Assembly: GCF_006874585.1 (NCBI RefSeq)
Contig: NZ_CP029762.1
Coordinates: 589,922-653,921 of the forward strand
Reading direction: 5' to 3'
Length of the DNA: 64,000 nucleotides
Source: Sphingomonas sp. IC081
GTDB lineage: Bacteria; Pseudomonadota; Alphaproteobacteria; Sphingomonadales; Sphingomonadaceae
The notes beneath the pieces were generated by a model. The model ran no database searches. It was not told where the DNA came from and saw only the letters and a program-made list of their open reading frames with translations. The position numbers were made by a program, and so were the translations under genes. Shown here piece after piece: positions 4,030-33,696 of the stretch; position 1 is the first letter of the stretch; each line of letters opens with the position of its first letter.

Positions 4030-4833
4030 ATGATCGAAACGCTTTTCACCGGTGAACAGGCGCTCACCGTCTGGCTCTGGGCCTTTGTCGCCACCGGCGT
4101 GGTTGCCGGTATCGTCAGCGGATTCTTCAAGGCCCGCAAGATCCAGCCGCGCGGGTTCAAGTGGAAGACACTGCGCAACGAAGCGATCGTCGCCGTGATC
4201 ACCCTGCTGATCTCGGGCAAGATCCTTGGCGCCGCTACTGGCTGGCTGAAGGCGCAGGGCTGGATCACCTTCCACAGCGGCCCTGCCCCCTGGTGGATGA
4301 TCGCGCTGGAGTTCGGCGCGTACTTTTTCCTGTTCGACACCTATTTCTACTGGCTCCATCGCTGGATGCACAAGGAGCCGTTCTATGGCTGGGTGCACAA
4401 GCTTCACCACAAGTCGACCTCGCCCAACCTGCTGACGACACTCTCCGTCAATCCGCTGGAATCGATCATCAACGGCGGCTTCGTGCCGCTGTTCCTGGCG
4501 ATCTTCACCGTTCATCCCGCCACGATGGCGCTGATCCTGCCGACCAACATCGTCATGGGTCTCTACGTGCACTCCGGATACGAGTTCCTGCCGCGCTGGT
4601 GGAACCGCACCTGGGCTACCAAGTGGTTCATCACCGCGACGTTCCACGACCAGCACCATCGCTACTTCACCGGCAATTACGGCGGCTACACGACGATCTG
4701 GGACCGTCTCTGCGGAACCATGCGCAAGCGATACGAAGCCGATTTCGACACGATCAAGGCGCGCACGGTGCCTGACCGCGGCCTCCCGGGATTGAACGCG
4801 GAAGGCGGCGAAGCCCAGGCGCTGAACTCATGA
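4030..4833 (+). CDS. Sterol desaturase / fatty acid hydroxylase family membrane protein
   Basis: A 267-residue integral membrane di-iron oxygenase-like protein. The histidine clusters of the family are visible: D103 followed by HRWMH (H110 to H114), then HKLHHKSTSPN, and near the C-terminus HDQHH. Hydrophobic segments flank these boxes. Known members hydroxylate or desaturate sterols, fatty acids or carotenoids; the substrate cannot be told from the sequence. It lies 8 bases after a small hydrophobic ORF and its stop overlaps the end of the convergent oxidoreductase gene by 6 bases. Confidence 0.85.
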   Translation: MIETLFTGEQALTVWLWAFVATGVVAGIVSGFFKARKIQPRGFKWKTLRNEAIVAVITLLISGKILGAATGWLKAQGWITFHSGPAPWWMIALEFGAYFFLFDTYFYWLHRWMHKEPFYGWVHKLHHKSTSPNLLTTLSVNPLESIINGGFVPLFLAIFTVHPATMALILPTNIVMGLYVHSGYEFLPRWWNRTWATKWFITATFHDQHHRYFTGNYGGYTTIWDRLCGTMRKRYEADFDTIKARTVPDRGLPGLNAEGGEAQALNS

Positions 4834-5982
4834 CCCGGGCGTAAACTCCAGCTGCGTCCATTTGCTGTCAGACCCGGCATTGGCGACCACGCTTTCGACA
4901 AATGCCATGGTCCGCAGTCCCGCCGCGATGGATGGGAATGCGTCGTCCGGGCCCGGCGCATCGCCCAGGATACGGGCGGCAAAGGCGCGGTAGAGGTTTG
5001 CGAAAGCCTCGATGTAGCCCTCGGGATGGCCCGCCGGGGTGCGCAGCCGCTGCAAGGTGGACGGCGCCAGCCCCGGACCGCCGGATCGCACGGTTTCCAT
5101 CGGCCGGTCCAGCCAGCGCAGCACCAGGCTGTTGGGTTCCATCTGCGACCACTCGAGACCGCCCGCCTCGCCGTGGATACGCAGCTTCAGGCCGTTCTCG
5201 TCCCCGGCCGCAACCTGGGTGGCCTTAAGCACGCCGCGCGCACCGTTATCGAGCCGCAGCAGCACGCTGACATCGTCATCCAGCTGGCGACCCGAAACGT
5301 GAGTCGCAAGGTCGGCACAGAGCTGCTCCACCCGGAGCCCCGATACGTGTTCGGCAAGGTGGAAGGCATGGGTGCCGATGTCGCCGAGACAGCCCCCCAG
5401 TCCGGCGCGCGCGGGATCGGTACGCCATTCGGCCTGCTTGTTGCCGTCCCGGTCGATCGGCTGGCTGAGCCAGCCTTGCGAATACTCGACCTGGACCAGC
5501 CGCACCTTGCCGAAATCGCCGCGCGCGACCCGCGCGCGCGCCTCCTCGATCAAGGGATAACCGCTATAAGTGAAGGCAAGCGCGAAGTGACGGCCGGAAC
5601 GCGCCGCAGCCTGCGCGATTTCCTGCGCTTCCGCAGTGCTCAGCGCCATGGGCTTTTCGCAGAAGACGTGAAAACCGGCGTCCAGCGCGGCAATCGCCAT
5701 CGGCGCGTGGAGGTGATTGGGCGTGACGATCGACACCGCATCCACCCGTTCCGCTTCGGGCAGAGCCGATTCCGCGGCAAGCATGGCCTCCAGCGACGCA
5801 TAAGTGCGCGCCGGCGCAATGCCCAGCATGTCGCCCGAGCGCCGGTTGCGCGCGGGATCGCTGCTGAAGGCCCCTGCGACCAGTCGCCAGTCCCCGTCGA
5901 GCGCCGCCGCCGCGCGGTGGATCGCGCCGATGAAGGCGCCCTCGCCTCCGCCCACCATGGCCAGTTGCAGGGTCCGTTTCAT
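4828..5982 (-). CDS. Gfo/Idh/MocA-family NAD(P)-dependent oxidoreductase
   Basis: A 384-residue protein with an N-terminal Rossmann segment (LAMVGGGEGAFIGAIH), the family motif CEKPMALS near residue 107, and a C-terminal alpha/beta domain. Relatives oxidise or reduce sugar hydroxyls and keto-sugars using NAD(P). The ATG at 5982 is preferred to the adjacent GTG at 5985 because AGGGAG precedes it by 7 bases. It is transcribed divergently from the cytochrome c/keto-sugar operon and shares a 110-base promoter region that contains the palindrome at 6049-6060. It probably interconverts sugar and 3-keto-sugar in the cytoplasm; the exact substrate is not determined. Confidence 0.85.
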   Translation of the reverse strand: MKRTLQLAMVGGGEGAFIGAIHRAAAALDGDWRLVAGAFSSDPARNRRSGDMLGIAPARTYASLEAMLAAESALPEAERVDAVSIVTPNHLHAPMAIAALDAGFHVFCEKPMALSTAEAQEIAQAAARSGRHFALAFTYSGYPLIEEARARVARGDFGKVRLVQVEYSQGWLSQPIDRDGNKQAEWRTDPARAGLGGCLGDIGTHAFHLAEHVSGLRVEQLCADLATHVSGRQLDDDVSVLLRLDNGARGVLKATQVAAGDENGLKLRIHGEAGGLEWSQMEPNSLVLRWLDRPMETVRSGGPGLAPSTLQRLRTPAGHPEGYIEAFANLYRAFAARILGDAPGPDDAFPSIAAGLRTMAFVESVVANAGSDSKWTQLEFTPGS

Positions 5983-6511: not shown

Positions 6512-7555
6512 ATGCGTGGTCCGGCCATCTTTCTGGCGCAGTTCATGGGTGATGCCGCCCCGTTCGACAGCCTGGACAATGCCGCCCGGTGGATGGCGCA
6601 GGCCGGCTACAAGGGCATCCAGGTGCCCAGCAACGATCCGCGCTGCATGGACCTTGGGCTGGCGGCCGAAAGCCAGGACTATTGCGACGAACTGGCCGGG
6701 CGCTGCCGCGAGGCCGGGGTCGAGATCACCGAGCTGTCCACCCACCTGCAAGGCCAGCTGGTGGCGGTCCATCCCGCCTATGACGCCGCTTTCGATGCTT
6801 TCGCCCCGGCCGAGCTGCGCGGCAAGCCCGCGCAGAGGCAGGCATGGGCGGTGGATCAGCTCAAGCTTGCGGCAAAGGCCAGCCGCCGCCTGGGGCTGAC
6901 GGCCCACGCCACCTTCTCGGGCGCGCTTGCCTGGCCGTTCTTCTATCCCTGGCCGCAGCGCCCCGCCGGTCTGGTGGAGGAGGCCTTCGCGGAACTGGGG
7001 CGGCGCTGGCAGCCGATCCTCGACAGCTTCGACGAGGAAGGGGTCGACCTCTGCTTCGAACTCCATCCCGGTGAGGACCTGCACGACGGCCTGACCTTCG
7101 AGCGTTTCCTCGATGCCGTAGGCGGCCACCGGCGCGCCAACATTCTCTACGATCCCAGCCACTTCGTGTTGCAGGCGATGGACTACCTCCAGTTCATCGA
7201 CATCTATCACGAGCGCATCAGGATGTTCCACGTCAAGGACGCCGAACTCAATCCGACCGGGCGGGCGGGCGTCTATGGCGGCTATGCCGACTGGGTGGAT
7301 CGTCCCGGCCGTTTCCGCTCGCTGGGCGACGGGCAGGTCGACTTTACCGGCATCTTCTCGCGTCTAACCCAGTATGGCTACGAGGGCTGGGCGGTGCTCG
7401 AATGGGAGTGCTGCCTCAAGCACCCCGAGGACGGCGCGCGCGAGGGGGCACCCTTCATCGCGGCACACATGATCCGCCGTCCGGAGCGGGCATTCGACGA
7501 TTTCGCAGGGGGCGGAGATCCCGCCAACAACCGGCGCTGGCTGGGGCTGACCTGA
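6512..7555 (+). CDS. Sugar phosphate isomerase/epimerase family TIM-barrel protein
   Basis: A 347-residue cytoplasmic protein (no signal peptide) of the AP-endonuclease-2-like TIM-barrel family. The metal-site motifs are in order: CFELHPGED, ILYDPSHF, MFHVKDAE and VLEWE, which would supply Glu, Asp, His and Glu ligands. Members act on sugars, inosose and, in recent work, 3-keto-sugars. It starts 14 bases after the cytochrome gene with AAGGGG upstream, so it is in the same transcript. In this setting I infer a keto-sugar isomerase or cleavage role, without knowing which. Confidence 0.82.
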   Translation: MRGPAIFLAQFMGDAAPFDSLDNAARWMAQAGYKGIQVPSNDPRCMDLGLAAESQDYCDELAGRCREAGVEITELSTHLQGQLVAVHPAYDAAFDAFAPAELRGKPAQRQAWAVDQLKLAAKASRRLGLTAHATFSGALAWPFFYPWPQRPAGLVEEAFAELGRRWQPILDSFDEEGVDLCFELHPGEDLHDGLTFERFLDAVGGHRRANILYDPSHFVLQAMDYLQFIDIYHERIRMFHVKDAELNPTGRAGVYGGYADWVDRPGRFRSLGDGQVDFTGIFSRLTQYGYEGWAVLEWECCLKHPEDGAREGAPFIAAHMIRRPERAFDDFAGGGDPANNRRWLGLT

Positions 7556-7616: not shown

Positions 7617-8921
7617 ATGACGGACATAAACCGGCAAAGGCTATTCTGGCTGAGCGTCCTGGCGCTCTTCACCGCGTCGATGAGCGCGTCGCTGCGCGCG
7701 GCGGTCGCCAGCAGCCTGAAGGCGCAGTGGATCGACCCCGTCGCGCCGATTTCGGCGGGCGAAATGATCGGCGCCGCGCTCGGCTCGGCGTTCCTCGGCT
7801 TCTCGATCACCGTCTTTGTGGTCAGCGCGGTGCTGGACCGGATCGGCATCCGCCGCGTGCTGATCGGCTGCGGGATCGCCTTCCTCATCGGCACCACCCT
7901 GATCGTCGGGGCGGGCCTGTTCGCCAGCGGCATGGCGGTCTACCACCTCGTCTGGCTGGGCATGCTGCTGAGCGGCATCGGCTGGGGCTTTGCCGAGGCA
8001 TCGATCAATCCGCTGACCGCGCGGCTCTATCCCGAAGACACCACCCACCGGCTCAACGTGCTTCACGCCTGGTATCCGGGCGGGCTCATCGTCGGCGGGC
8101 TCGCCGGCGTGTTCCTGGCGCCGCTGCTGCCCTGGCAGGCGATCATGGCGCTGGTGTTCCTTCCCGCCGTGCTTGTCATCATGATCGCCGCCACGACCCG
8201 CTTCCCCGAGCCGCCCGCGGCGGCCGGCGAGCGGGCGATGAAGGACATGATGCTGGAAGTGGTGCGCCGTCCCAGCTTCTTCATCTGGTTCGGGGCGATG
8301 TTCCTCACCGCCTCTTCCGAGCTGGCGCCGGGCCAGTGGATCGACGTGGCGCTCAGCAACCGCGTCGGCATGCGCGGCATCCTGCTGCTGGTCTATGTCA
8401 GCGCGCTGATGTTCGTGTTCCGCCACTTCGCCGGACGGATCGCCGGCCGCCTGTCCAATCCGGGGCTGCTCTGGGTCTCCAGCCTGCTCGCCGCGATCGG
8501 CCTGTTCCTGCTTTCGCAGGCCCAGTCCCCGGTTTCCGCGATCCTGGCATCGACGGTCTGGGGCCTTGGCGTCTGCGCGATGTGGCCGACGATGCTGGCC
8601 TCGGTTGCCGAACGCTACCCGCGCGGCGATTCCTGGGCGCTCGGGCTGGTCGGTTCGGCCGGTGCGCTGGCGAGCTTCTTTGTGCTGCCGCGCCTTGGCG
8701 AGATGTTCGACGCGGCCAAGATCGAGCTTGCCGGCGGACCGGACGCCTTCACCAAGCTCACCGGCCCGGCGCTCACGGCGGTGGAAGATGCTGCCGCCTC
8801 GCAGTCTTTTGCCCGGCTGACCTTTGTCCCGCTGACGCTGCTGATCGTGTTCGGCGTGATCTGGCTGGCCGAGCGGCGCGCCGCCCGCAAAACCGGCGGT
8901 CTGGCGGAGGGCGCGGCATGA
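7617..8921 (+). CDS. MFS sugar-type transporter
   Basis: A 434-residue protein with about twelve hydrophobic segments in the two-half arrangement of the major facilitator superfamily. The ATG at 7617 (MTDINRQRLFWLSV) is chosen over 7599 because TAGAGGA lies 7 bases before it. A D-R-I-G-I-R-R loop between segments resembles the family signature. It overlaps the following isomerase gene by ATGA, placing it in the keto-sugar operon. The probable role is uptake of a sugar or keto-sugar across the inner membrane; the substrate is inferred only from context. Confidence 0.82.
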   Translation: MTDINRQRLFWLSVLALFTASMSASLRAAVASSLKAQWIDPVAPISAGEMIGAALGSAFLGFSITVFVVSAVLDRIGIRRVLIGCGIAFLIGTTLIVGAGLFASGMAVYHLVWLGMLLSGIGWGFAEASINPLTARLYPEDTTHRLNVLHAWYPGGLIVGGLAGVFLAPLLPWQAIMALVFLPAVLVIMIAATTRFPEPPAAAGERAMKDMMLEVVRRPSFFIWFGAMFLTASSELAPGQWIDVALSNRVGMRGILLLVYVSALMFVFRHFAGRIAGRLSNPGLLWVSSLLAAIGLFLLSQAQSPVSAILASTVWGLGVCAMWPTMLASVAERYPRGDSWALGLVGSAGALASFFVLPRLGEMFDAAKIELAGGPDAFTKLTGPALTAVEDAAASQSFARLTFVPLTLLIVFGVIWLAERRAARKTGGLAEGAA

Positions 8922-9844
8922 GCCTGACCCGGCGCACCGTGATCGCCACCGGGCTGGCCGCCGCTGCTGCACCGGCCCTTTCGGCAGGGGCGCATGCGGC
9001 TGCGGGCAAAGGCAGTTCCAACGCCGCCTATTTCTCGCTCGGCTATGCCCCGCACGAGGGCAGCTTTGCCAGTCGCGGCGCCTTGCTGGAGCAGATCGCC
9101 TTTGCCGCCGACCAGGGCTTTCGCGCCTGGGAGGACAACGAGGCCGCCAAGCGGCCCGTCGAACAGCAGGAGGCCATGGCCCGCGCCTTGTCGCAGCGCG
9201 GCATGACGATGGGCGTCTTTGTCGCCAGCATGCCGAAGTGGTCCGATTTCCGCCCCGTGCTGGGCAGCAACGACAACGGCGACCGGGAGGCGTTTCTGGC
9301 CGACATCCGCGCGTCGATCGCGGTCGCCAAACGGCTCGGCGCGCGGCACATGACGGTGGTCACCGGCTTCATGGACCGCAAGGTGCCCGAAGCGATCCAG
9401 ACCGGCCGCATCATCGACTGCATGCGCCGCGCGGGCGACATCGTCGCGCCACACGGGCTGACGCTGGTGATGGAGCCGCTCAACACCCGCACCAACCACC
9501 CCGGCGTGTTCATGCACTCCATCGCGCAGGGTTATGCGGTCGCGCGCGGCGCAAACGGTCCCGGCGTCAAGATCCTGGCGGATCTCTACCACGAGCAGAT
9601 CCAGTCCGGGAACCTGATCCCGACGCTCGAGAGCTGCTGGGCCGAGATCGGCTATATCCAGTTCGGCGACAATCCCGGCCGCAAGGAACCGGGAACCGGC
9701 GAGATCAACTACGCGACCATCACCCGGTGGCTGCGCGCCCGTGGCTATGACGGCGTGATCGGCATGGAGCACGGCAACTCCGTCCCCGGCCGCGAGGGCG
9801 AGGAGCGCCTGATCGCCGCCTACCGGGCCATCGACAAGACATGA
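8918..9844 (+). CDS. Tat-exported hydroxypyruvate isomerase-like TIM-barrel protein
   Basis: A 308-residue protein starting MSLTRRTVIATGL, a twin-arginine signal, then an Ala-rich segment to about residue 28, so it is likely periplasmic. The mature part is an AP-endonuclease-2-type TIM barrel with metal-site motifs LVMEPLNTR, LADLYHEQ, YIQFGDNPGR and IGMEHGNS, most like hydroxypyruvate isomerases. Starts and stops overlap both neighbours by ATGA (8918 and 9841), indicating tight co-expression. Export of this family is typical of keto-glycoside loci rather than of central metabolism. The reaction is not certain. Confidence 0.8.
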   Translation: MSLTRRTVIATGLAAAAAPALSAGAHAAAGKGSSNAAYFSLGYAPHEGSFASRGALLEQIAFAADQGFRAWEDNEAAKRPVEQQEAMARALSQRGMTMGVFVASMPKWSDFRPVLGSNDNGDREAFLADIRASIAVAKRLGARHMTVVTGFMDRKVPEAIQTGRIIDCMRRAGDIVAPHGLTLVMEPLNTRTNHPGVFMHSIAQGYAVARGANGPGVKILADLYHEQIQSGNLIPTLESCWAEIGYIQFGDNPGRKEPGTGEINYATITRWLRARGYDGVIGMEHGNSVPGREGEERLIAAYRAIDKT

Positions 9845-9858: not shown

Positions 9859-10698
9859 ATGCGACATGTCCCGATCGGCCTGGTGGTGGCAGGCTCCATC
9901 CTGACGGCCACGTGCGTGGAGGCGCAGGACAAGCCGGGGTTCAGGGATACGCCGATGCTGCCCGGCGGCACATGGCACGTCCACGATCCCGACCGGCCCG
10001 CGCCGGCCGAAGTCACCCCGGCCGCCGCTCCCGGCGCCCCGCCCTCCGATGCCATCGTCCTGTTCTCCGGCACCTCGCTCGATGCCTGGCACGGCGAGCG
10101 CGCGCCGTGGACGCTGGCCAACGGCGTCATGACGATCCCCTCGCGGGCGGCGAGCGGCGGCGAGAACAACCTCGTCTCGAACCAGGAATTTGGCGACGTC
10201 CAGCTGCATCTGGAATTCCGCTCACCCAACCCGCCCGAGAAGACCTCGCAGGACCGGGGCAACAGCGGCATCTGGTTCATGCAGCGCTATGAAGTCCAGA
10301 TCCTCGACGGTTACCGCAACCCGACTTATGCCGACGGCACCGTGGGCGCGGTCTATGCGTGGAAACCGCCGCTGGTGAACCCCTCGCGGCCGCCCGGCGA
10401 ATGGCAGAGCTACGACATCGTGTTCGAACGCCCGCGCTTCGACGCCGGCGGTGCGCTGCTGCGCCCGGCCTATGTCACCGTGCTGCTGAACGGCGTGCTA
10501 GTGCAGAACCACCAGGCCATGCTGGGCACCACCGTCTGGCGCAAGGTCGCGCAGTATCAGGCACACGCCGACAAGGCGCCGATCCAGTTGCAGGATCACA
10601 ATTCGCCGGTGTCTTTCCGCAACATCTGGGTCCGCCCGCTGCCGGAAGAGGCCATCGCTCAGGACCTCCAGCAGGACCTCAAGGGGGCAGCACGATAA
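9859..10698 (+). CDS. 3-keto-disaccharide hydrolase (DUF1080) family protein
   Basis: A 279-residue exported protein with the DUF1080 jelly-roll fold signature: VLFSGTSLDAWHG early, DRGNSGIWFMQRYEVQILD in the middle, and IQLQDHNSPVSFRNIWVRPL at the end. Family members hydrolyse 3-keto-O-glycosides. I prefer the ATG at 9859 because AAAGGGA lies 8 bases before it and a clean signal peptide follows (MRHVPIGLVVAGSILTATCVEA). The ATG at 9841, which overlaps the previous stop, is the alternative. It would act in the periplasm on glycosides oxidised by the GMC dehydrogenase complex encoded downstream. Confidence 0.85.
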   Translation: MRHVPIGLVVAGSILTATCVEAQDKPGFRDTPMLPGGTWHVHDPDRPAPAEVTPAAAPGAPPSDAIVLFSGTSLDAWHGERAPWTLANGVMTIPSRAASGGENNLVSNQEFGDVQLHLEFRSPNPPEKTSQDRGNSGIWFMQRYEVQILDGYRNPTYADGTVGAVYAWKPPLVNPSRPPGEWQSYDIVFERPRFDAGGALLRPAYVTVLLNGVLVQNHQAMLGTTVWRKVAQYQAHADKAPIQLQDHNSPVSFRNIWVRPLPEEAIAQDLQQDLKGAAR

Positions 10699-11276
10699 TG
10701 GATCGCAGAAACGCGCTTGCAGGCATGGTCGCCATGTTCGGCGCCCAGCTCTTTGCCCCCCTTGCCCGCGCAGCCGGGAGCGCCGCCGGGATCACCACCG
10801 GAGCCGCGATGCCGGTAATCGACGAGGGCGCGGCCAGCATCCAGGTGTTCACGCCCGGGCAGCGCGCGCTGATGACCGCGCTGTGCGAACGCATCGTGCC
10901 CACCACCGACACCCCCGGCGCCATTGCCGCAGGGGTTCCCGCCTATGTCGAGAAGCTGCTGGCGGATTGGGCGCTGCCGGAAGATCGCCTGCCGATCCTC
11001 TCCGGCCTGGCCGAAATCGACGCGCGCAGCCGTCAGGACTACAAGCTCCCCGCCGCCCAGGCCAGCCCCGAACAGCAGGACGCGCTGCTGACCCTGGCGA
11101 TGAACAACGCGTTTCCCGATGGCGAGGAGTTCTTCAAGGCGTTCCGGCAGATGGTTGTCGTCGGCTACTACACCTCCGAGATCGGCATCACCCAGGAACG
11201 CGAATACCTGCCCGTCCCCGGCGAATACAATGGCGCCTTCCCCTATTCCCAGGTCAACAAGGTCTATTCCGCATGA
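10698..11276 (+). CDS. Gluconate 2-dehydrogenase subunit 3-like small subunit (Tat signal)
   Basis: A 192-residue protein with a twin-arginine N-terminus (MDRRNALAGMVAMFG) and a helical mature part containing FTPGQRALMTALCERIVPT and a C-terminal GYYTSEIGITQEREYLPVPG, hallmarks of the small subunit that accompanies membrane or periplasmic GMC dehydrogenases. By family knowledge it carries the folded large subunit (12143-13825, which lacks a signal) through the Tat system. Its start overlaps the DUF1080 stop (TAATG) and its stop overlaps the next start. Confidence 0.85.
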   Translation: MDRRNALAGMVAMFGAQLFAPLARAAGSAAGITTGAAMPVIDEGAASIQVFTPGQRALMTALCERIVPTTDTPGAIAAGVPAYVEKLLADWALPEDRLPILSGLAEIDARSRQDYKLPAAQASPEQQDALLTLAMNNAFPDGEEFFKAFRQMVVVGYYTSEIGITQEREYLPVPGEYNGAFPYSQVNKVYSA

Positions 11277-12118
11277 TCATGAATCGTCGTTCCCTCATGC
11301 TGGGCGCCGGCGGCCTTGCCGCGCTTGCCAGCCAGCCCCTGCTTGCCGGCCTCGCCGGTGCCGCGCAGATCAAGAAGGTCGGCCTGCAGCTCTATACCGT
11401 GCGCGAGTTGTTCGCGGCCGATCCGGTCGCCACGCTCGAAAGCGTCGCGCGCATCGGCTACCGCGAAGTGGAATACGGCGGCGGCGGCTATGACACCATG
11501 GATCACGCGCGGCTGCGCAGCACCATGGACCGGCTGGGCCTCTCCTGCCCCTCCATCCACGTCGGCTACGATGCGCTGCTCGGCAACTTCGACGCCAGCG
11601 TGGCGATGGCGCGCACGCTGGGCGCGGACACCATCGTCCTGCCCTACATGGTCGACAAATACCGCAACGCCGAGGCCTGGGACGCGGCGCTGGTCAACAT
11701 CAACCGCTTCGGCGAGAAGCTGAAGGCCGCCGGTCTCGGCTTCGCCTACCACAATCACGACTTCGAGTTCACCGTGAAGCCGGACGGCGTCAGCCTCTAC
11801 GAGCGGATGCTGAAGGCGTGCAATCCTGCCTTCGTCCGCTTCGAACTGGACATCTACTGGGCCGTCCACGCCGGGGAAGATCCGCTGGCGCTGATCCGCC
11901 GTCTCGCCGGGCGCATCTACGCCTACCACGTCAAGGACATGCGGGCGGACCGCAGCATGACCGCAGTGGGCGCCGGCACGATCGACTTTGCCGGGATCTT
12001 CAAGCTCAACGGCCTTGCCGGCGCGCGGCACTTCTATGTCGAGAACGACCAGGCGCCCGCGCCCTTCCTGCCCGACATCACCAAGAGCTTCCAGACCCTC
12101 AGCGCCCTGCGCTTCTGA
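11273..12118 (+). CDS. Exported sugar isomerase/epimerase TIM-barrel protein
   Basis: A 281-residue protein with a basic, hydrophobic N-terminus (MNRRSLMLGAGGLAAL) that looks like a Tat signal, so probably periplasmic. The mature domain shows QLYTVRELF, AYHNHDFEF, FELDIYWAVHAG, YAYHVKDM and FYVENDQ, the standard order for AP-endonuclease-2/inosose-type TIM barrels. Start at 11273 overlaps the previous stop as ATGA; a second ATG lies at 11279. This is the third TIM-barrel sugar enzyme in the operon and differs clearly from the other two. A role as 3-keto-glycoside eliminase or isomerase is inferred from context. Confidence 0.83.
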   Translation: MIMNRRSLMLGAGGLAALASQPLLAGLAGAAQIKKVGLQLYTVRELFAADPVATLESVARIGYREVEYGGGGYDTMDHARLRSTMDRLGLSCPSIHVGYDALLGNFDASVAMARTLGADTIVLPYMVDKYRNAEAWDAALVNINRFGEKLKAAGLGFAYHNHDFEFTVKPDGVSLYERMLKACNPAFVRFELDIYWAVHAGEDPLALIRRLAGRIYAYHVKDMRADRSMTAVGAGTIDFAGIFKLNGLAGARHFYVENDQAPAPFLPDITKSFQTLSALRF

Positions 12119-12142: not shown

Positions 12143-13825
12143 ATGGCGGCAACCGACAGGTTCGATGCGATCGTCATCGGCTCCGGCATCAGCGGCGGCT
12201 GGGCGGCAAAGGAACTGACCGAAAAGGGCCTGCGCGTGCTGATGCTCGACCGCGGCCACATGGTCGAGCATCTTGAGGACTACACCTACGACGGCAAGCC
12301 CGCCTACGAAGTCCCGGCGCGCAACATCATGCCCGAGGGCCTGCGCGAGAGCGACTACTTCATCGCCCAGCACGGCTACGTCGCCCCCAGCAACCGCGCC
12401 TTCTACAACAACGACCGGCTGAACCCCTACGACTTTGCGCAAGGCAGCAAGTTCTACTGGATCCGCCCCGGCGCGGTCGGCGGCAAGTCGCTGATCTGGG
12501 GCCGCTGGAGCTTCCGCTGGAGCGCCGCCGACTTCGAGGCCAACAAGCGCGAGGGCATCGGCAGCCACTGGCCGATCGGTTATGACGACCTCCTGCCCTG
12601 GTACGGCTACGTCGAGAAATATATCGGCGTCTCGGGCTCGCGGGAAAATCTCGACTACCTGCCGGACAGCGAGTTCCAGCCGCCGATGCCCATGAACATC
12701 GCCGAGAAGTGGATGAAGCAGCGGCTGGAAACCGCCTTCCCGGGCCGCAAGATGATCAATGCCCGCCTGTCCAACATGACCGAAGACAAGCCCGAGCAGA
12801 ACCGCACCCGCTGCCAGCTGCGCAACCAGTGCAGCAACGGCTGCTCGTTCGGCGCCTATTTCTCGACCCAGGCCGTCACCCTGCCCGCCGCCAGGGCAAC
12901 CGGTCGGCTGACGCTGCGCTCCGATGCGGTGGTCACCAGCCTCGAATACGATCCCGCCAGCCGGAAAGTCACCGGCGTGCGCTTCATCGATGCCAAGACC
13001 GGGCAGGCGGAAGTGGTGCGCGCCAGGATCGTCTTCCTCAATGCCTCGACGATGGGCTCGCTGCAGGTCCTGATGAACTCCCGCGCCGAGGGCACCGGGC
13101 GCAGCCATTTCAACAGCAGCGGCACGCTCGGCCGCTACGTGATGGACCATATCTTCCGCGTCGGCGTGCAGGGCGACATTCCGGGCATGGAGGAGTTCAT
13201 CGAATATGGCCGCCGCCCCGGCGCCATCTATGTCCCCCGCTTCCGCAACAACGGGCGGGACGAAGGCCTCGGCTTCCACCGCGGCTATGGCTACCAGGGC
13301 GCGGCCTACCGCGAACCGTCAAGGCCGGTCGGCTTCGGCGCCGCGATGAAAGAGGGCATGCGCCGCTACAGCGGCTGGAAATTCCAGATGGGCGCCTTTG
13401 GCGAATGCCTGCCCTACGAAGACAACCACGTCGCCCTGAGCGCGGACAAGGTGGACCGTTTCGGAGTGCCGCTGATGCAGTTCAACGTCACGTTCCGCGA
13501 CAACGAACTGAAGATGATGGCCGATGCGCGCGAGCAGGGCGAGAGGATGCTGCGCGGCGCCGGGCTGACCAACGTGGTGAGCAAGGTGAAGGAACATGTG
13601 CCCGGCGATGCCATCCACGAGATGGGCGGCGCGCGCATGGGCGACGATCCGCACAGCGCGGTGCTCAACAAGTGGAACCAGGCGCACGACGCCGCCAACC
13701 TGTTCGTCACCGACGGCGCGCAGATGGCCTCGGTCTCCTGCGTCAATCCCTCGCTGACCTTCATGGCGCTGACCGCGCGGGCAGTGGATCACGCTGTCGC
13801 CGCGATGAAGGCCGGGACGATCTGA
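12143..13825 (+). CDS. GMC-family flavoprotein dehydrogenase, large subunit (candidate glycoside 3-dehydrogenase)
   Basis: A 560-residue FAD enzyme with the dinucleotide motif IVIGSGISGG at residues 10-19 and the C-terminal GMC signature HEMGGARMG plus NPSLTFMALTARA, which provide the active-site His/Asn region. C224, C230 and C234 (CQLRNQCSNGC) resemble the cysteine cluster that binds an iron-sulfur centre in FAD glucose dehydrogenases. No signal peptide is present, consistent with Tat export together with the small subunit at 10698. With the cytochrome at 6096 this matches known lactose/glucoside 3-dehydrogenases, which oxidise the C3 hydroxyl of sugars. Substrate range is unknown. Confidence 0.85.
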   Translation: MAATDRFDAIVIGSGISGGWAAKELTEKGLRVLMLDRGHMVEHLEDYTYDGKPAYEVPARNIMPEGLRESDYFIAQHGYVAPSNRAFYNNDRLNPYDFAQGSKFYWIRPGAVGGKSLIWGRWSFRWSAADFEANKREGIGSHWPIGYDDLLPWYGYVEKYIGVSGSRENLDYLPDSEFQPPMPMNIAEKWMKQRLETAFPGRKMINARLSNMTEDKPEQNRTRCQLRNQCSNGCSFGAYFSTQAVTLPAARATGRLTLRSDAVVTSLEYDPASRKVTGVRFIDAKTGQAEVVRARIVFLNASTMGSLQVLMNSRAEGTGRSHFNSSGTLGRYVMDHIFRVGVQGDIPGMEEFIEYGRRPGAIYVPRFRNNGRDEGLGFHRGYGYQGAAYREPSRPVGFGAAMKEGMRRYSGWKFQMGAFGECLPYEDNHVALSADKVDRFGVPLMQFNVTFRDNELKMMADAREQGERMLRGAGLTNVVSKVKEHVPGDAIHEMGGARMGDDPHSAVLNKWNQAHDAANLFVTDGAQMASVSCVNPSLTFMALTARAVDHAVAAMKAGTI

Positions 13826-13893: not shown

Positions 13894-14943
13894 ATGGCGC
13901 GGCGTAACGAGAACGGGGTGACGATCCGCGCCGTGGCACAGCGCGCCGGCGTATCCGCGATGACCGTGTCCAACGTCCTCAACGGCGCCGGCAGGGCCAG
14001 TGCCGCCACGGTGGAGACGGTCCGCGCGGCGATCGCGGAACTGGGCTATGTCCCCAACCTGGCGGCCCGGCGGCTGGCCAAGTCGCGCGCGACGACCGTG
14101 GGCCTGCTCTACAGCGACCGGCGCACGCCCTTTCTGGATGCCGTGCTGGTGGGCGCCCTGCGCGCGACCAACGCCCAGGGCCTGCAACTGCTGCTGCGCG
14201 ACGGTGAGGGCAGCAGCCGCGCGGAAGCCGAGCGCATGGCGCAGGACCTCGTGCGCTCGGGCGCCGATGCGCTGCTGCTGATCCCGCCCTTTGCCGAACA
14301 GCTCAGCGGATCGACGGTGCTGGAAGAACTCGGCGTCCCCCTCGCCGCCATCGCCACGGGTACGGCGCTGGCCGATGTCATCACCGTGCGGATCGACAAT
14401 CGCGGCGCCATGCGGGCGCTCACCCGGGACGTCATCGCCGCCGGCCACCGCCGCATCGCCTATGTCGCCGGGCCTGACCATTACAGCGTTGTCGGCGCCC
14501 GCCTCGAAGGCTTTCTCGAAGCCCTGCGCGCAGCCGGACTGGCGGAGGAGCCCGATCTCATCGTGCGGCACGGCGCGTTCGACTATGCCTCGGGCGAGAC
14601 GGCGGCACGGCAGCTCCTCGCCCTGCCCTCCCCGCCGAGCGCCATCATCTGCAGCAGTGACGACCTCGCCGCCGGGGTAGTCGCCGAAGCCAACCGGCAG
14701 GGCCTGCAATTGCCTGGCCAGCTGTCCGTCACCGGGTTCGACGACACCGTCCTCGCCTCCCGGCTCTGGCCGCCGCTGACGGTCGTTCGCCAGCCGGTCG
14801 AGGACATGGCCTACCGCGCCGCCCAGTGCCTGATCGCCGCGCTCGGCAAAACCGGAAGCGACGTCAGCGACGAGATCTTCGACCATACGATCGTGACACG
14901 GGCCTCGATCGCCCCGCACAGGACTTCGGAGCCTTTGTCATGA
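13894..14943 (+). CDS. LacI-family transcriptional regulator
   Basis: A 349-residue repressor with an N-terminal helix-turn-helix ([20 protein letters not shown]) and hinge helix [10 protein letters not shown], followed by a periplasmic-binding-protein-like sensor domain ending near [20 protein letters not shown] in type (here VTGFDDT). It lies 68 bases after the GMC dehydrogenase gene on the same strand, so it is likely the locus regulator. The best candidate operator is the palindrome at 6049-6060. The inducer is presumably a sugar or keto-sugar of this pathway; this is inference. Confidence 0.9.
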
Positions 14944-20167: not shown

Positions 20168-20197
20168 CGCCCGGCGGGTAGGCCGGCACATCGCGCA

Positions 20198-22406: not shown

Positions 22407-22421
22407 TGAGAATGCGTCGCA
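22407..22421. promoter_or_regulatory. Weak candidate Fur-like site before the STN receptor
   Basis: TGAGAATGCGTCGCA keeps 11 of 14 informative positions of a TGCGAAT-N-ATTCGCA dyad and lies 45 bases before the receptor start in the 119-base gap after fecR. The gap implies an own promoter here, which could be used by the FecI sigma factor and silenced by Fur. Assigned by resemblance only. Confidence 0.35.
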
Positions 22422-22465
22422 ACATCGTGATTGCGCCGCCTCGTGAACATCAGGGGGTCAATCCA

Positions 22466-24958: not shown

Positions 24959-24996
24959 GCGATGCGGTTCCCGCAACGGCGCGCAAGGAGCGCCTC

Positions 24997-27199: not shown

Positions 27200-29259
27200 C
27201 CCCGCTTTCCCTGCTTCTCGCCGGTGCCGCGGCCATGGCATCCGGCACCTCCGGCGACGAACCGCAGAGCGGCGATCCGGTGCCCGCAAACGCGGCCCAC
27301 GCCCTTGCCCCCAGCGGGCCAGACCCGGTTTACCCGGCCGAGTTCTACAAGCCCTTCCAGCCCCAGACCGCGCTGGACATGCTGGAGCGCACGCCGGGTT
27401 TCCTCCTCACCGAGGGCTCCTCGGTGCGCGGTTTCGGCGGCGCTGCGGGCAATGTCCTGATCGACGGCCAGCGCCCGACCGTGAAAGGCGGCGGGATCAC
27501 CGAAGTCCTTCGGCGGATCGGCGCCTCGCGGGTCGAGCGGGTGGTGCTGCTGCGTGGCAGTGACGCCGCCGAGGCGCAGGGCCAGACGCTGGTCGCCAAC
27601 CTGATCCTGCGCGCGGATGCGGGCGGTTCCGGCAATGCCTCGCTGGCACTGGCGCATACCGCCGACGGCCATGTCTCGCCCGATGCCCGCATCAGCTACG
27701 CGCGGCGGGTCGCAGGCTGGCAGACCAATGTCGAGCTTTCCGCCCAGACCGTGCGCTACCCCACCCACGCCGTCTATCTGGAGCGCGATGCCGCCGCCGC
27801 CCTCACCCGCACGCGCCGCGAGCGGATCTCGGCCAATGCCCCGCAATATGGCCTTGCCCTCTCGACCTCGGGCGCCCTTGGCGGGGGGACGCTGACGGTG
27901 AACCTGCGGCTCGGCAAGGACAGTTACGCCTCGCACACCGGCTACGACATCTTCGACGGCGCCGAAGACGCAGTGCCCGATTCCGTCCGCACCATCGCCT
28001 ACCGCGAAAGCAGCCGCAGCGGCGAACTCGGCGCCGACTGGACCCGCCACCTCGGCAACGACTGGAGCACCAAGCTGGTCGCGCTGGGCACGCTCGAACG
28101 CTACGTCACCGCGGACGATCTGGTCGAACCGGGCTATCGCGGCGTGTCCAGCCAGCGCGAGAAACCGGTCGAACTGGTCGGCCGCCTGACCCTGACCCGC
28201 GAGGGTGACCATGCGTTCCGGCCCGAATTCGGCGCGGAAGCGGCCTACAACCGCCTGACCAGCAGGCTCGACTATGCCCAGGACAGCGGCGCCGGCCTTG
28301 TGCCCATAGCGCTCAGCAACGCCGACACCCGCGTGTCCGAACAGCGCGCGGAGGCCTTTGCCAACCTCACCGTACGGCTGGCCCGCCGCGTCTCGCTGGA
28401 AGCGGGCATGGCGGCCGAATTCTCGAAGATCACGGTGAGCGGCGAGGCCGCCAGCGCGCAGAGCCTGTCCTACCTCAAGCCTTCGGCGGCCCTCGTCTGG
28501 TCGCCATCGGCCGAAACGCAGCTGCGCCTCGCCATGCGCCGCACGGTCGACCAGCTGGACTTCAGCGACTTCGCCGCCTCGGTCAACCAGACCGACGGGC
28601 GCCCGCTCGGCGGCAATTCGCGGCTGCGCCCCGCCCGCGTGACCCGCGCGCTGGCCCGGCTCGACCACCGCTGGGGCAAGGGCGGGGCCCTCGCCCTCGA
28701 AGGCTGGCACCAGTGGCACACCGGCCTGCTCGGCTATGTCCTGCTGCCCAGCGGCGAGGAGGCGCTGGGGACGATCGGCAACGCCCGCCAATGGGGCGTG
28801 ACGGCGCAGGGCACGCTGCCGCTGGAGGCCGTGCTGCGCGGCGCCCGGCTGACCGTGGACGCCGCCTTGCGCCGTTCGCGCATGCGCGATCCGGTGACCG
28901 GCGAGGATCGCCGCATGGACGACGTGCTGCCGCGCAGCATCACCGCGGAGCTGCGCCATGACCTCCCCGCGCTCAGGTCCTCCTGGGGGGTGACCTACAC
29001 CGCCGCCGAATATGCCGATGTGTTCTACACCGCCGAACGGCTGCGCTGGCGCGATGGCCAGAGCTGGGGCGGCTATGTCGAGACGACCGCGCTCCCCGGC
29101 TTCAAGACCACGCTCGCCGTCTCCGCGCTGGGCGGGCAGGACTTCTACCGGATGCGCCGTTTCTATTCCCCCAGCCGCGCGGGCACGCCGACCGGCAGCG
29201 AGGAACGACGTCGGCGGCAAGGCGCCTCGGTGACGCTGACGCTGGCCAGGGCGCTGTGA
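27196..29259 (+). CDS. Plug-domain outer-membrane receptor-like protein
   Basis: A 687-residue protein with a short signal-like start (MTPLSLLLAGAAAMASG), then a plug-like segment: TALDMLERTPGFLLTEGSSVRGFGGAAGNVLIDGQRP and VERVVLLRGSDAAEAQGQTLVANLIL. The remainder alternates aromatic and polar residues as in 20-odd barrel strands and ends GASVTLTLARAL. A clear TonB box is not seen, and the plug is short, so it may be a reduced receptor. It is the last gene of the siderophore operon (ATGA overlap with DUF3649) and is followed by a 254-base gap. The ligand is unknown. Confidence 0.78.
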   Translation: MTPLSLLLAGAAAMASGTSGDEPQSGDPVPANAAHALAPSGPDPVYPAEFYKPFQPQTALDMLERTPGFLLTEGSSVRGFGGAAGNVLIDGQRPTVKGGGITEVLRRIGASRVERVVLLRGSDAAEAQGQTLVANLILRADAGGSGNASLALAHTADGHVSPDARISYARRVAGWQTNVELSAQTVRYPTHAVYLERDAAAALTRTRRERISANAPQYGLALSTSGALGGGTLTVNLRLGKDSYASHTGYDIFDGAEDAVPDSVRTIAYRESSRSGELGADWTRHLGNDWSTKLVALGTLERYVTADDLVEPGYRGVSSQREKPVELVGRLTLTREGDHAFRPEFGAEAAYNRLTSRLDYAQDSGAGLVPIALSNADTRVSEQRAEAFANLTVRLARRVSLEAGMAAEFSKITVSGEAASAQSLSYLKPSAALVWSPSAETQLRLAMRRTVDQLDFSDFAASVNQTDGRPLGGNSRLRPARVTRALARLDHRWGKGGALALEGWHQWHTGLLGYVLLPSGEEALGTIGNARQWGVTAQGTLPLEAVLRGARLTVDAALRRSRMRDPVTGEDRRMDDVLPRSITAELRHDLPALRSSWGVTYTAAEYADVFYTAERLRWRDGQSWGGYVETTALPGFKTTLAVSALGGQDFYRMRRFYSPSRAGTPTGSEERRRRQGASVTLTLARAL

Positions 29260-29513: not shown

Positions 29514-30518
29514 ATGTCCAAGATCCAGCGGGGCGTCAGCCTCTACAGCTTTCAGGAAGAGATGTTCCTGGGCCAGATGAGCGTGGAGGACTGCGTCGCC
29601 TTCGCCGCCTCCATCGGCGCGAAGGGCATCGAGATCCTGCCCGAACAGAACATGCCGCGCTTTCCGAACATCGACGACGGCGAAGTGGCCCGCTGGCAGG
29701 ACATGCTGGCCCGCCACGGCGCCCACTTCACCTGCTACGACATGTTCCTCGACACCAAGCTGCGCAAGGGCGAGACGATGTCGGACGAGGAGCAGGTCGA
29801 GAGCATCCGCCGCGATCTGGTGCTGTGCAACCGCCTCGGCATCCGCAACATGCGCGTGCTGGTCTTCGTGCGGCCCGACATCCTCGAGAAGTGCGTGCCC
29901 TATGCCGAGCAGCTCGACGTCCACATGGGCGTGGAAGTCCATGCCCCCTGGCATCTCGAACATGCCTGGATCCTGCGCACGATCGAGGTCGCCGACCGGC
30001 TGGGCACGCAGCATCTCGGCATCCTGCCCGACATGGGCATCTTCATGAAGCACTACCCGCCCGAATTCCGCGCCCGCTTCGAGCGACAGGGGGCACGGCC
30101 GGAAGTGGCGCAGTTCATCGTCGACCAGCACGAGGCGAAGATCATGTGCGAATACACGATCTACGAAGTCGCGGTGAAGATGGGCGGCAACAAGGCCGAG
30201 ATCGCCATGGCCGAAACCCTGCGCCACGCGCCTTTCGCCAACCCCCGGCGGATCAAGGACTACGCCCCCTACTTCCGCCACATCCAGGCCAAGTTCTACG
30301 GCATGACGGAAGACTGTACCGACCCCACCATCGCCTATGACGAAGTGATCCCCGAACTGGTGAAGTGCGGCTGGGAAGGCACGCTTTCCAGCGAATACGA
30401 AGGCAATCGCTGGGTGCAGGACGTCATGCCGGTCGACAGCCGCGAGCAGGTGCGCCGCCAGCACGTCCTATTCGAAAACCTCATTGCCAGGGCCGAGGGC
30501 CAGCGGGAGATCGCCTGA
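29514..30518 (+). CDS. TIM-barrel sugar isomerase family protein, candidate C-glycoside deglycosidase alpha subunit
   Basis: A 334-residue cytoplasmic TIM barrel of the AP-endonuclease-2 superfamily. Likely metal ligands by position are E141 (GVEVHAPWH), D173 (ILPDMGIF), H206 (DQHEAKI) and E294 (SSEYEGNR). It is followed with a TGATG overlap by a small protein resembling the beta subunit of C-glycoside deglycosidases. In characterised CGD enzymes this large TIM-barrel subunit and a small partner cleave the C-C bond of 3-keto-C-glycosides with a divalent metal. Pairing is the strongest evidence; by itself the barrel could be any sugar isomerase. Confidence 0.72.
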   Translation: MSKIQRGVSLYSFQEEMFLGQMSVEDCVAFAASIGAKGIEILPEQNMPRFPNIDDGEVARWQDMLARHGAHFTCYDMFLDTKLRKGETMSDEEQVESIRRDLVLCNRLGIRNMRVLVFVRPDILEKCVPYAEQLDVHMGVEVHAPWHLEHAWILRTIEVADRLGTQHLGILPDMGIFMKHYPPEFRARFERQGARPEVAQFIVDQHEAKIMCEYTIYEVAVKMGGNKAEIAMAETLRHAPFANPRRIKDYAPYFRHIQAKFYGMTEDCTDPTIAYDEVIPELVKCGWEGTLSSEYEGNRWVQDVMPVDSREQVRRQHVLFENLIARAEGQREIA

Positions 30519-30910
30519 TGTTCGACAAGTACCTGATCGACGCCGCCTCGCTGCGCAACACCGGCCCCGAGGGGGCCCCCACCGGTTTCGCGTTCGAGGC
30601 CAAACTCGGCTATTATCGCGGCCTCGGCCTCTCGATGATCGAGAAACTGGACGTGTCCATCGATGGCGAGACCCTGCCCCGCGACGCGGTGCGCTTCGAC
30701 GAGGGCGAAGGCGCCCTGTCGCTCGACGAGATGGAAACCGCCTACGAGCGCCGCTGGCCTTTCGGAGCTGCCGCCACGATCCTGGTGGCGCATCCCGGCG
30801 GCTTCCCTCAGGGCGAGCACGAGCTGGGCATGCTGCAGCAACTGCGGGTTTCCTACTTGCCGTTTCCGGCGGTCAACACCGATACCAAGACAGTCTCGGT
30901 GAGCCGGTAG
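30518..30910 (+). CDS. Candidate C-glycoside deglycosidase beta subunit (DUF6379-like)
   Basis: A 130-residue soluble protein beginning MFDKYLIDAASLRN and containing AKLGYYRGLGLSMIEKLDVSIDGE, LSLDEMETAYERRWPFG, HPGGFPQGEHELGM and RVSYLPF. From memory these features (YYRG-L-LS-I-E, W-FG, GG-L-GEH, R-SY-PF) match the beta subunit of C-glycoside deglycosidases, a jelly-roll-like partner of a TIM-barrel alpha subunit. Its start overlaps the alpha gene stop by one base (TGATG), as expected for a fixed-ratio complex. No alignment was run, so the family call needs confirming; substrate (flavone C-glycoside or other) is unknown. Confidence 0.65.
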   Translation: MFDKYLIDAASLRNTGPEGAPTGFAFEAKLGYYRGLGLSMIEKLDVSIDGETLPRDAVRFDEGEGALSLDEMETAYERRWPFGAAATILVAHPGGFPQGEHELGMLQQLRVSYLPFPAVNTDTKTVSVSR

Positions 30911-31124: not shown

Positions 31125-33212
31125 ATGCCCCTCCCCCTTCCGCCCCTCCTCACGGCGAGGTGCCGCGAGGCGCTCGCCGCGCTGCTCTGGGGCGGCAGGC
31201 GACTGCAGCGGGAGACCCTTGGCGGTGTCTCCACCCTGGTGGCGCTGTCGCTGCCGCTGGTGATCGGGGCGGTCGGTCTCGGCTACGATTTCAACCGCGG
31301 CTACAACCAGCGCCTGTTCAACCAGCGCGTGGCGGACATGGCCGCGCTCGGCGCCGCGCTCGAATACCGCGCCAGCGAAAGCGCCGACATCGATGCCGCC
31401 GCCCGCTCGATCTCGGTGGCCAACGGCCTGTCGGACGCCACCATCCGGACCGAACTGCTAACCGACTTTCCCAATGCCGGCGACACCTCGGTACGCGTCA
31501 CCGTCACCCGTGCGGTGCCGTTCACGCTGGCTGCCGTGCTGGGCTTTTCCGGCAACTATTCGGTCGCCGCCGATGCCGCCGCGATCGTCAGCAGCGAGGC
31601 GCCTTATGCGGCGCCCTGTTTCCTGGCGCTGAGCAACGGCGCGGACGCCCTGCAAGTCCAGGGCGGGGCCTCGATCGTCGCCTCGGATTGCTCGGTCGCC
31701 GCGGCCGGGGACGTGTCCAACAAGGGCACGCTGATCAAGGCCAGCGACATCATCTCGGGCAGCGGCAGCATCTCGCTCGACTATGGCACCCTGACCGCCA
31801 ATTCGCTGCGTTACGCCAACGGCCTCAACGTGCCGGCATGGAACACCAACCTGCCGCCTGCCAAGGACCGCCACAACGTCGCCACGGCGCTGTCGGACCC
31901 CTGGGCGAACAGCAGCGAACTGCAGGGCGCCATCGCCCAGATCGGCAATCATGCGCCCTTGCCCGCGCTGTCCGACCCGGTCACGCCCGCGGGCAGCGAA
32001 TGGAACCTGTCGTGGAGCCCGAGCGCGGCCGTCACCGCCTACCGCACCGGGCCCTATACCGGCGAATACGTGATCCCCAAGGGCAACTACACGATCGGTG
32101 CCTTCATCGTCGGCGGCGGCATCAAGGTGACCTTCGCCTCCGGCTCGAACATCACCATCGCCAATGGGGTGAACATCGGCGGCGGCTCCACGGTGAACTT
32201 CGGCGACAGCAACATCTGGGTGAACGGCGGCTTCAACAGCGGCTCGAACGGGGTCACGATCGGCAACGGCACCTTGTGGATCGGCAGCGGCACCGTGACG
32301 TTCAGCGGCACCAACAGGAAGGGAAGCGGCGATGTCACCATCAACGCGCCGGTATCGCTGGGCGGCGGCATCTATCTCGACATGGGCGCGGGCAACCATG
32401 CCTTCCGTTCACTGACCCTCTCGGGCGGCGGCAGTTCGGCGCTGGGCAACGGCGACTTCTCGGTGCTGTCCGGCGTCAGTGTCGGCGGCGGCAGCGAACT
32501 CGTCATCGGCAATGGCAATATCGTCATCGGTGCGGGCAGTTCCGGCAATGCGATCACCCTGTCGGGATCGGCCAAGCTGCTGATGGGCGACGGGCCGTTC
32601 TCGGCGATCGGCAATGTCGCGACCGAAGGCGGCAGCCGCATCGTCTTCGGCCAGACCCCCAACCACACCATCGCCGGCAACATGACCATTGCCGGCTCCG
32701 CCTATTTCGGCGCCGGGCGCTATACCGTGGCGGGCAGCTTCACCAACGGCACCGGCGGCACCACCTGGCCCTATACCTCGCCGCGCACCGGCCTGACCTA
32801 CGGCGCCAACGGTTCGGGCTACGACATGGTGGGCTATGACGTGTCCTTCGTGCTGTCGGGCGCGCTCAACCTTTCCGGCGGCGCCAAGACCAAACTTTCC
32901 GCCCCTGCCAGTTCCGTGTCCGGCGGTGCCATCGGCGGCCTGCTGGTGCACACCAATACCTCCAGCGCGATCAACTGGGGCGGCGGCTCGAGCAATGTCT
33001 TTGGCGGCGTGGTCCACGTGCCCAATGCCACCGTGACGATGAGCGGCGGCAACTCGACCGGGGATTCCGGCAATTCCGGCACCTGCTTCATGCTGATCGC
33101 CAACAAGATCAACGCCTCGGGCGGCACCACCACCGGGTCGGCCTGCAAGTCGAACATTGACGGCGCCAGCGGCAGCGACACCACCGCTCCGCAGATCCGG
33201 CTGGTGAAGTAG
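31125..33212 (+). CDS. TadG-like protein with a long glycine/serine-rich repeat region
   Basis: A 695-residue protein. Residues about 28-65 (ETLGGVSTLVALSLPLVIGAVGLGYDFNRGYNQRLFNQRVADMAA, here quoted in overlapping parts) form the Tad/pilin-like N-terminal helix. Residues about 155-640 are rich in G, S, N and V in short periods (for example TIANGVNIGGGSTVNFGDSN, then IGNGTLWIGSGTVTFSG), suggesting stacked beta strands or a beta-helix instead of the von Willebrand domain common in TadG. Several cysteines (CFLALS, DCSVAA, CFMLIA, ACKSN) could pair. It precedes two TadE-like genes. No tad ATPase or secretin is in the window. A surface or pilus-associated role is inferred. Confidence 0.7.
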   Translation: MPLPLPPLLTARCREALAALLWGGRRLQRETLGGVSTLVALSLPLVIGAVGLGYDFNRGYNQRLFNQRVADMAALGAALEYRASESADIDAAARSISVANGLSDATIRTELLTDFPNAGDTSVRVTVTRAVPFTLAAVLGFSGNYSVAADAAAIVSSEAPYAAPCFLALSNGADALQVQGGASIVASDCSVAAAGDVSNKGTLIKASDIISGSGSISLDYGTLTANSLRYANGLNVPAWNTNLPPAKDRHNVATALSDPWANSSELQGAIAQIGNHAPLPALSDPVTPAGSEWNLSWSPSAAVTAYRTGPYTGEYVIPKGNYTIGAFIVGGGIKVTFASGSNITIANGVNIGGGSTVNFGDSNIWVNGGFNSGSNGVTIGNGTLWIGSGTVTFSGTNRKGSGDVTINAPVSLGGGIYLDMGAGNHAFRSLTLSGGGSSALGNGDFSVLSGVSVGGGSELVIGNGNIVIGAGSSGNAITLSGSAKLLMGDGPFSAIGNVATEGGSRIVFGQTPNHTIAGNMTIAGSAYFGAGRYTVAGSFTNGTGGTTWPYTSPRTGLTYGANGSGYDMVGYDVSFVLSGALNLSGGAKTKLSAPASSVSGGAIGGLLVHTNTSSAINWGGGSSNVFGGVVHVPNATVTMSGGNSTGDSGNSGTCFMLIANKINASGGTTTGSACKSNIDGASGSDTTAPQIRLVK

Positions 33213-33213
33213 C

Positions 33214-33696
33214 ATGGCCAGAGGCGCCCTGCTGGCCGACGAGCGCGGCGTCGTCGCGGTCGAATTCGCGCTGTGGAGCACGCTGCTGTTCCTGGTGATT
33301 TCCATCGGGCTCGACTTCGCGCTCTACTACATCCAGCGCTCCAAGGTGGACGAGGCGCTCTCGGCCACCGCGATCAGCGCCTTCAACGCGCGTCTCAGCG
33401 TGCCCTACGCCGAGCTTCCCGCCACCATGCGCGCCTTGTCCGAGACCCCCGCGCTGGACGTCGGCCTCAGCTGCAACGGGCAGGCCAATGCCTGCAGCAA
33501 CACCGCGCGCGAATGTGCCTGCCTGCAGGCGGACGGCACCTATCACGCCCAGGCCTGCGCCTCCGCATGCTCGGGCATGACCACCACCGCCGGCTATTAC
33601 CTGACGATCCGCGCCCGCGCGGGATACACCCCGTTCATGGTGCCGCGCTCGCTGACCAGCGACATCGTGCGGCAGACGACGGTGCGCCTGCAATGA
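33214..33696 (+). CDS. TadE-like pilus assembly protein
   Basis: A 160-residue protein with the TadE/TadG N-terminal motif: DERGVVAVEFALWSTLLFLVISIGLDFALYY, a glycine before a glutamate-containing membrane helix. Residues beyond 45 are periplasmic and contain six or more cysteines (SCNGQANACS, ECACLQ, ACASACSG), suggesting disulfides. It starts 2 bases after the upstream gene and overlaps the next gene (ATGA at 33693). Minor pilin or assembly role inferred from family. Confidence 0.8.
   Translation: MARGALLADERGVVAVEFALWSTLLFLVISIGLDFALYYIQRSKVDEALSATAISAFNARLSVPYAELPATMRALSETPALDVGLSCNGQANACSNTARECACLQADGTYHAQACASACSGMTTTAGYYLTIRARAGYTPFMVPRSLTSDIVRQTTVRLQ

Follow-up and report, generated by a model that had tools for sequence, protein, structure and literature searches.

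A C-glycoside deglycosidase-family gene pair of Sphingomonas sp. IC081 from a clade with glutamine at a metal-ligand position

Known C-glycoside deglycosidases and the pair in Sphingomonas

The enzymes known as C-glycoside deglycosidases (CGDs) act on an inert C-C bond. Their metal site had been described as well conserved and essential. According to the accessible text of Mori et al. (2021; PMC8563793), AgCGD2, PuCGD (DgpB-C) and EuCGD hold the metal in the alpha subunit, with the active site at the subunit interface, and their metal site is built from one His, two Glu, one Asp and one Lys. In AgCGD2 these ligands are Glu147, Asp179, His269, Lys271 and Glu305, with His149 as the base, and exchange of ligands for Ala in PuCGD and MiCGD dramatically lowered C-glycoside cleavage (PMC8563793). 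CGD homologues in Proteobacteria are already reported there, so a sphingomonad CGD as such falls within the known range of the family.

Our study examined 64,000 nucleotides of the Sphingomonas sp. IC081 genome (the window, meaning the whole of this stretch), which contain a genuine CGD-family alpha-beta pair (Table 1). The two genes lie side by side with open frames, and the stop of alpha and the ATG of beta share one base, the A of TGATG; this one-base overlap and the 130-residue beta were as the initial annotation had described them, and the beta motifs that it quoted are present. Beta matches the Pfam family CGDB (PF19906) over the whole profile (positions 1-112 of 112; E-value 3e-36; score 124.1 bits, cut-off 27.6), and in alpha the AP_endonuc_2 domain is recognised. 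By sequence, the best solved relatives are 8qvc_A for alpha (6e-105), with other CGD alphas next, and 8qvc_B for beta (2e-22). An alpha model built from a 24-row alignment (mean pLDDT 93.5) had as its best fold match the same structure, the C-glucosyl deglycosidase of Deinococcus aerius (Foldseek TM 0.94, Z 45.6), and the first non-CGD chain reached Z 26.5 compared to 33.0 for the lowest CGD among the matches listed. In the tree, alpha was placed among alphas that have a beta partner. The family had been proposed from the letters alone, and the profile and structure searches proposed with it agree for both proteins; neither an unrelated family for the small protein nor a position of alpha among partnerless isomerases was seen.

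Table 1. Positions of the CGD pair and of the 3-keto-glycoside locus in the window
Feature	Position	Strand	Remarks
Gfo/Idh/MocA oxidoreductase	4828..5982	-	Relatives near CGD pairs elsewhere; possible 3-keto-glucose reductase
AtHYD-like protein (2-hydroxy-3-keto-glucal hydratase homologue)	6512..7555	+	Would hydrate the elimination product
MFS transporter, 3-keto-glycoside locus	7617..8921	+	
Xylose-isomerase-like TIM barrel protein, 3-keto-glycoside locus	8918..9844	+	
3-keto-disaccharide hydrolase family protein	9859..10698	+	PF06439
Gluconate 2-dehydrogenase subunit 3-like small subunit	10725..11276	+	
Second xylose-isomerase-like TIM barrel protein, 3-keto-glycoside locus	11273..12118	+	
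GMC oxidoreductase	12143..13825	+	Candidate glycoside 3-dehydrogenase that would supply the 3-keto substrate
LacI-type regulator, end of 3-keto-glycoside locus	13894..14943	+	
CGD alpha	29514..30518	+	334 aa, xylose-isomerase-like TIM barrel; open reading frame, AP_endonuc_2 and CGD matches
Gln258 codon CAG	30285..30287	+	Position of AgCGD2 ligand His269, from alignments
CGD beta	30518..30910	+	130 aa, PF19906

Aligning the AgCGD2 ligands and base with alpha revealed E141, D173, Q258, K260 and E294, together with H143 at the position of the catalytic His149; four of the five ligands are therefore present, and His269 is replaced by Gln258. For Glu147, His149, Asp179, His269 and Lys271, the 7dnm_A chain numbering used for this comparison is consistent with the published AgCGD2 numbers. 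Alpha is about 25 % identical to AgCGD2, PuCGD and EuCGD, which differ from it in having His where it has Gln. The D. aerius TR0125 enzyme (8qvc, 8qvd and 8umc) is closer, as it shares the alpha-beta make-up, is 50 % identical to the window alpha over the fold alignment and has identical residues at the Glu, catalytic His, Asp, Lys and Glu positions, whereas it reads HVHAK where the window reads HIQAK and has His at the position of Tyr75. Because the His ligand position is occupied by Gln258, we term the window pair a CGD variant rather than an ordinary CGD. On the beta side, Y33 corresponds to Tyr39beta of PuCGE and was invariant in 122 of 122 beta rows, from which matches of fewer than 90 residues were left out; Tyr39 in 7bvr_B is the second Tyr of YYR, as taken from an alignment with a related beta, and the numbering of 7bvr_B runs 6 ahead of the window beta at either end of their alignment, which leads to Y33.

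Extent of the glutamine clade

A contig scan with patterns made from one alignment (A1) yielded 289 loci, and HIQAK was present in 63 of the best 80 of these, at 77-97 % identity and in Sphingomonadales except for two Ideonella; the remaining 17 of the best 80 were 47-52 % identical and had His. Residue 258 was Gln in 68/68 clade rows compared to His in 31/31 related rows, and E141, D173, K260, E294 and the catalytic H143 were each retained in 68/68 clade rows. The Gln rows represent the 63 scan loci, the window and four further loci (66 distinct sequences, as L003 equals L053 and L006 equals L074), and the His rows represent 18 loci from L087-L106 (minus L091 and L104), 8qvc and 12 sphingomonad loci. 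Not counted were the short L025, the more distant L018 and L020-L024, which have His, and 15 additional alphas at loci already represented, of which five (L035_1, L038_1, L039_1, L041_1 and L100_1) have Gln. Further alphas from four genomes of the genus had Gln in the close sequences (L124-L134, L141) and His in lineages of 25-35 % identity (L135-L140).

Gln also occurs, as FIQAK, in a second CGD-like alpha family of about 30 % identity, found at five loci (L035, L038, L039, L041 and L100) with an adjoining beta match. Phylogenetic inference with 64 rows resolved the two Gln groups as separate clades, each supported at 100/100, with the His rows outside both; the placement of the second clade is less sure because of its long branches. 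The two Ideonella pairs (L061 and L064) were nested within the sphingomonad clade, and this nesting suggests horizontal transfer. As judged from these alignments, the fixed Gln is what sets the clade of the window pair apart from known CGDs.

The initial annotation had placed the metal site at E141, D173, H206 and E294. Three of these residues align with AgCGD2 ligands, but H206 was rejected as a homologous ligand, as this residue is Trp in AgCGD2 and, across the 31 His-type rows, Tyr 26 times, His 4 times and Phe once; the ligand position is that of Gln258. His occupies position 206 in 68/68 Gln-clade rows. Lying between the Asp strand and that of residue 258, it might take over as a metal ligand in the main clade; the second Gln clade has a gap at this position. 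In Escherichia coli YgbM, a Gln serves as metal ligand. A literature search for this YgbM ligand found nothing, and neither did one for a study of a sphingomonad CGD, which was weak as most subscription journals lay outside its reach. The 3-keto-glucal hydratase was likewise missed, yet the PDB contains its structure, and a lack of hits in the literature searched is therefore of little significance. Within the accessible parts of the CGD literature examined, no mention of Gln at the ligand position was found.

In the 63 Gln-type loci among the best 80 of 289, a beta match always followed alpha in the same orientation; for more distant alphas such as L018 and L020-L024, it lay upstream. An alpha/beta-hydrolase (esterase-like) gene occupied the approximately 900 bases between alpha and beta in 14/63 of the Gln-type loci (L026, L036, L043, L044, L045, L046, L049, L052, L053, L056, L072, L082, L085 and L091). 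Some CGD pairs deviated in form. In another genome of the same species, a CGD beta and a CGD alpha were apparently fused into one protein of 483 residues with HICNVHGKF at the ligand site (L135, 10110-11561); in one genome the beta beside a Gln-type alpha matched in two pieces in different frames (L028; G1084:C56:90646-90980), by frameshift or sequencing error; and L055 also had two beta matches.

The CGD family is sparse at the scale of the phylum and class: PF19906 matched in 4 of 398 genomes of a phylum sample (3 above the cut-off) and alpha in 3 of 385 genomes of a class sample, the own genome being included in both. Within the genus, an alpha homologue (E of 1e-30 or better) was detected in 69 of 195 genomes, so CGD homologues are not rare at this level; the initial annotation had described such pairs as best known from gut and soil Gram-positives and a few proteobacteria. 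Large plasmids of Novosphingobium, Croceicoccus and Sphingobium carry five homologues (H1-H5) of 80-90 % identity, among 23 plasmid records with a match.

Genomic surroundings and the putative C-glycoside route

A dehydrogenase locus upstream of the pair had been noted before, and it lies at 4828-14943, with homologues of several of its genes found within 10 kb of CGD pairs elsewhere. Its AtHYD-like protein matched AtHYD of Agrobacterium tumefaciens (8ro4) over 345 residues (618 bits, 3e-185) and shared 68-77 % of its residues with 22 proteins encoded at CGD loci; AtHYD acts as the next enzyme in the pathway and is no equivalent of the pair. The GMC oxidoreductase was 43-49 % identical (18 matches) and the Gfo/Idh/MocA protein 46-55 % identical (30 matches) to their equivalents at CGD loci.

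The pair itself is isolated in the window between TonB-receptor and Tad-like genes, with the end of the 3-keto-glycoside locus approximately 15 kb away, which counts against the reading set out below. Upstream (15393-29259) lie TonB receptor, TonB-like, FecR and PepSY genes; downstream, a gene whose Tad match falls short of the cut-off (31125-33212) precedes a TadE-like gene (33214-33696). The initial annotation had noted iron-uptake genes beside the pair. The window's TonB, FecR and PepSY genes are also present in another genome of the same species, but were absent from all recurring neighbour clusters of CGD loci. For this reason the link to iron uptake looks incidental, and the locus was not assigned a function in it. 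TonB receptors of other kinds were found repeatedly next to Gln-type pairs, with clusters in 16/63 and 13/63 loci, so that one close to the pair might nonetheless handle its substrate.

Neighbourhoods were compared across the 63 Gln-type loci, using flanks of up to 10 kb that were often shortened by contig ends and neighbour families named from one representative each. An FAD monooxygenase was present in 28/63, an extradiol dioxygenase-like protein in 15/63, an FrsA-like hydrolase and a cyclase in 16/63 each, a Gfo protein in 20/63 and an AtHYD-like protein in 15/63. At least one aromatic class (monooxygenase, dioxygenase, FrsA-like, cyclase, FAA hydrolase, luciferase-like or Rieske) occurred in 42/63 loci, at least one 3-keto class (Gfo, AtHYD-like, either GMC or Gluconate_2-dh3) in 30/63, and both in 17. 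Among the 17 His-type loci, a monooxygenase was found in 2 and a dioxygenase or cyclase in none.

Our own genome carries a corresponding module at C2:545999-550950, where genes for an FAA hydrolase, cyclase, FrsA-like hydrolase, dioxygenase and monooxygenase stand in a row. Their order is identical to that beside the pair of N. panipatense (L030), and the identities are 77 % for the FAA hydrolase, 93 % for the cyclase, 96 % for the FrsA-like hydrolase, 87 % for the dioxygenase and 80 % for the FAD monooxygenase. An FAD monooxygenase followed by an extradiol dioxygenase-like enzyme is an arrangement that the module presumably shares with naringenin degradation (FdeE) in Herbaspirillum seropedicae, a likeness by protein family only. 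FdeE acts on many flavonoids, according to the accessible part of a published account (PMC11303751).

Co-occurrence within the genus follows the same pattern. The module dioxygenase was detected in 63/69 genomes with alpha compared to 18/126 without (Fisher p 2e-27), and the AtHYD-like hydratase in 63/69 compared to 30/126 (Fisher p 6e-21), both tests ignoring kinship. Genomes assigned to the Gln type by a match of at least 77 % identity, and not by residue 258, had the dioxygenase in 39/42 cases and the AtHYD-like protein in 38/42; the 39 with the dioxygenase include 29 in which it shares a contig with the pair, in 25 of them within 25 kb. The 27 genomes with other alphas alone had them in 24 and 25 cases, respectively, which indicates that the co-occurrence concerns CGDs in general and not the Gln type alone.

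Taken together, the window pair is probably a two-subunit, Gln-type 3-keto-C-glycoside beta-eliminase, of a kind found mostly in Sphingomonadales, for aryl and probably flavonoid C-glycosides. The AtHYD-like protein of the window and the aromatic module of the genome support non-hydrolytic C-glycoside catabolism, and the window holds a candidate for each step of the sugar-side route. A dehydrogenase such as the GMC pair (10725-13825) would first oxidise C3 of the sugar of an aryl C-glycoside. By analogy with characterised relatives, the alpha-beta enzyme would then hold the 3-keto sugar at a divalent metal via E141, D173, Q258, K260 and E294, H143 would abstract the C2 proton, and Tyr33 of beta would help to activate the aglycone, so that the C-C bond is broken. 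The resulting 2-hydroxy-3-keto-glucal may be hydrated by the AtHYD-like protein (6512-7555) and the hydration product reduced by the Gfo/Idh/MocA enzyme, while the aglycone, probably a flavonoid, may undergo hydroxylation and ring cleavage by the monooxygenase, dioxygenase-like and hydrolase proteins of the module.

Several observations count against this reading. The module lies approximately 70 kb from the pair, the oxidase-type GMC that accompanies other Gln-type pairs has a best relative of just 37 % in our own genome, and the dioxygenase and hydratase also occur in some of the CGD-free genomes counted above. With its own PF06439 protein, the 3-keto-glycoside locus of the window may alternatively serve O-glycosides. 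A further objection is the exchange of the metal-ligand His for Gln; replacing this His with Ala left PuCGD and MiCGD dramatically less active (PMC8563793).

Meaning of the altered metal site

The alternative that survives best, although we regard it as unlikely, is that the Gln-type pair has shifted to another 3-keto-sugar reaction, either elimination from 3-keto O-glycosides or cleavage of another class of C-glycoside, of which the altered metal site would be a sign. Fixation of Gln throughout the clade would be in keeping with such a change, as would the clade-specific residues that accompany it (Y75, T156, F254, D270 and W287) and the close proximity of Gln-type and His-type pairs in some relatives, as if substrates were divided between them. 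PuCGE is reported, in the accessible part of PMC13273386, to eliminate a 3-keto O-glucoside as well. However, on plasmid pP6W1 of Novosphingobium sp. P6W, where the neighbour classes form one run together with glycosidases and a TonB receptor, a Gln-type pair belongs to an otherwise complete pathway, and that genome (G1082, matched to P6W by its coordinates) has no other PF19906. A single place for PF19906 was found in 12 of 20 genomes examined, including our own and that of P6W; the 20 were drawn from 23 genomes with a single Gln-type match, leaving out G1133, G1150 and G1201.

Decay or inactivation of a CGD through loss of one metal ligand is an improbable explanation of the pair. The replaced residue and the distance of our own pair from the pathway genes could be taken in this way, but Gln is invariant in 68/68 rows at 77-97 % identity and recurs in two separate clades, the frames in the window are open, and the two-piece beta belongs to a relative (L028) and not to the window. 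Least credible of all is an ordinary sugar isomerase or epimerase with beta as an accessory protein, to which the general AP_endonuc_2 domain of alpha and the resemblance of HIQAK to HLQIA of E. coli hydroxypyruvate isomerase would lend themselves, as solved CGD alphas rank first by sequence and by fold, and the beta partner and catalytic H143 are retained. When profiles were compared, with one side consisting of just one sequence, the match to hydroxypyruvate isomerase had a probability of 2 % and was not convincing.

Returning to the preferred reading of a Gln-type beta-eliminase, a bolder and more tentative extension is possible. The exchange of His for Gln, fixed in one clade and present independently in a second, might mark CGDs that differ in their metal, its coordination or the leaving group; C-C cleavage would then proceed without a His ligand that was thought essential, and sphingomonads would possess a complete pathway for flavonoid C-glycosides, at times on large plasmids.

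In summary, an entire clade that lacks the His ligand offers a direct test of what this residue does in CGDs. From the gene clusters one would further expect sphingomonads to degrade plant C-glycosides aerobically all the way, from oxidation of the sugar to cleavage of the aglycone ring.
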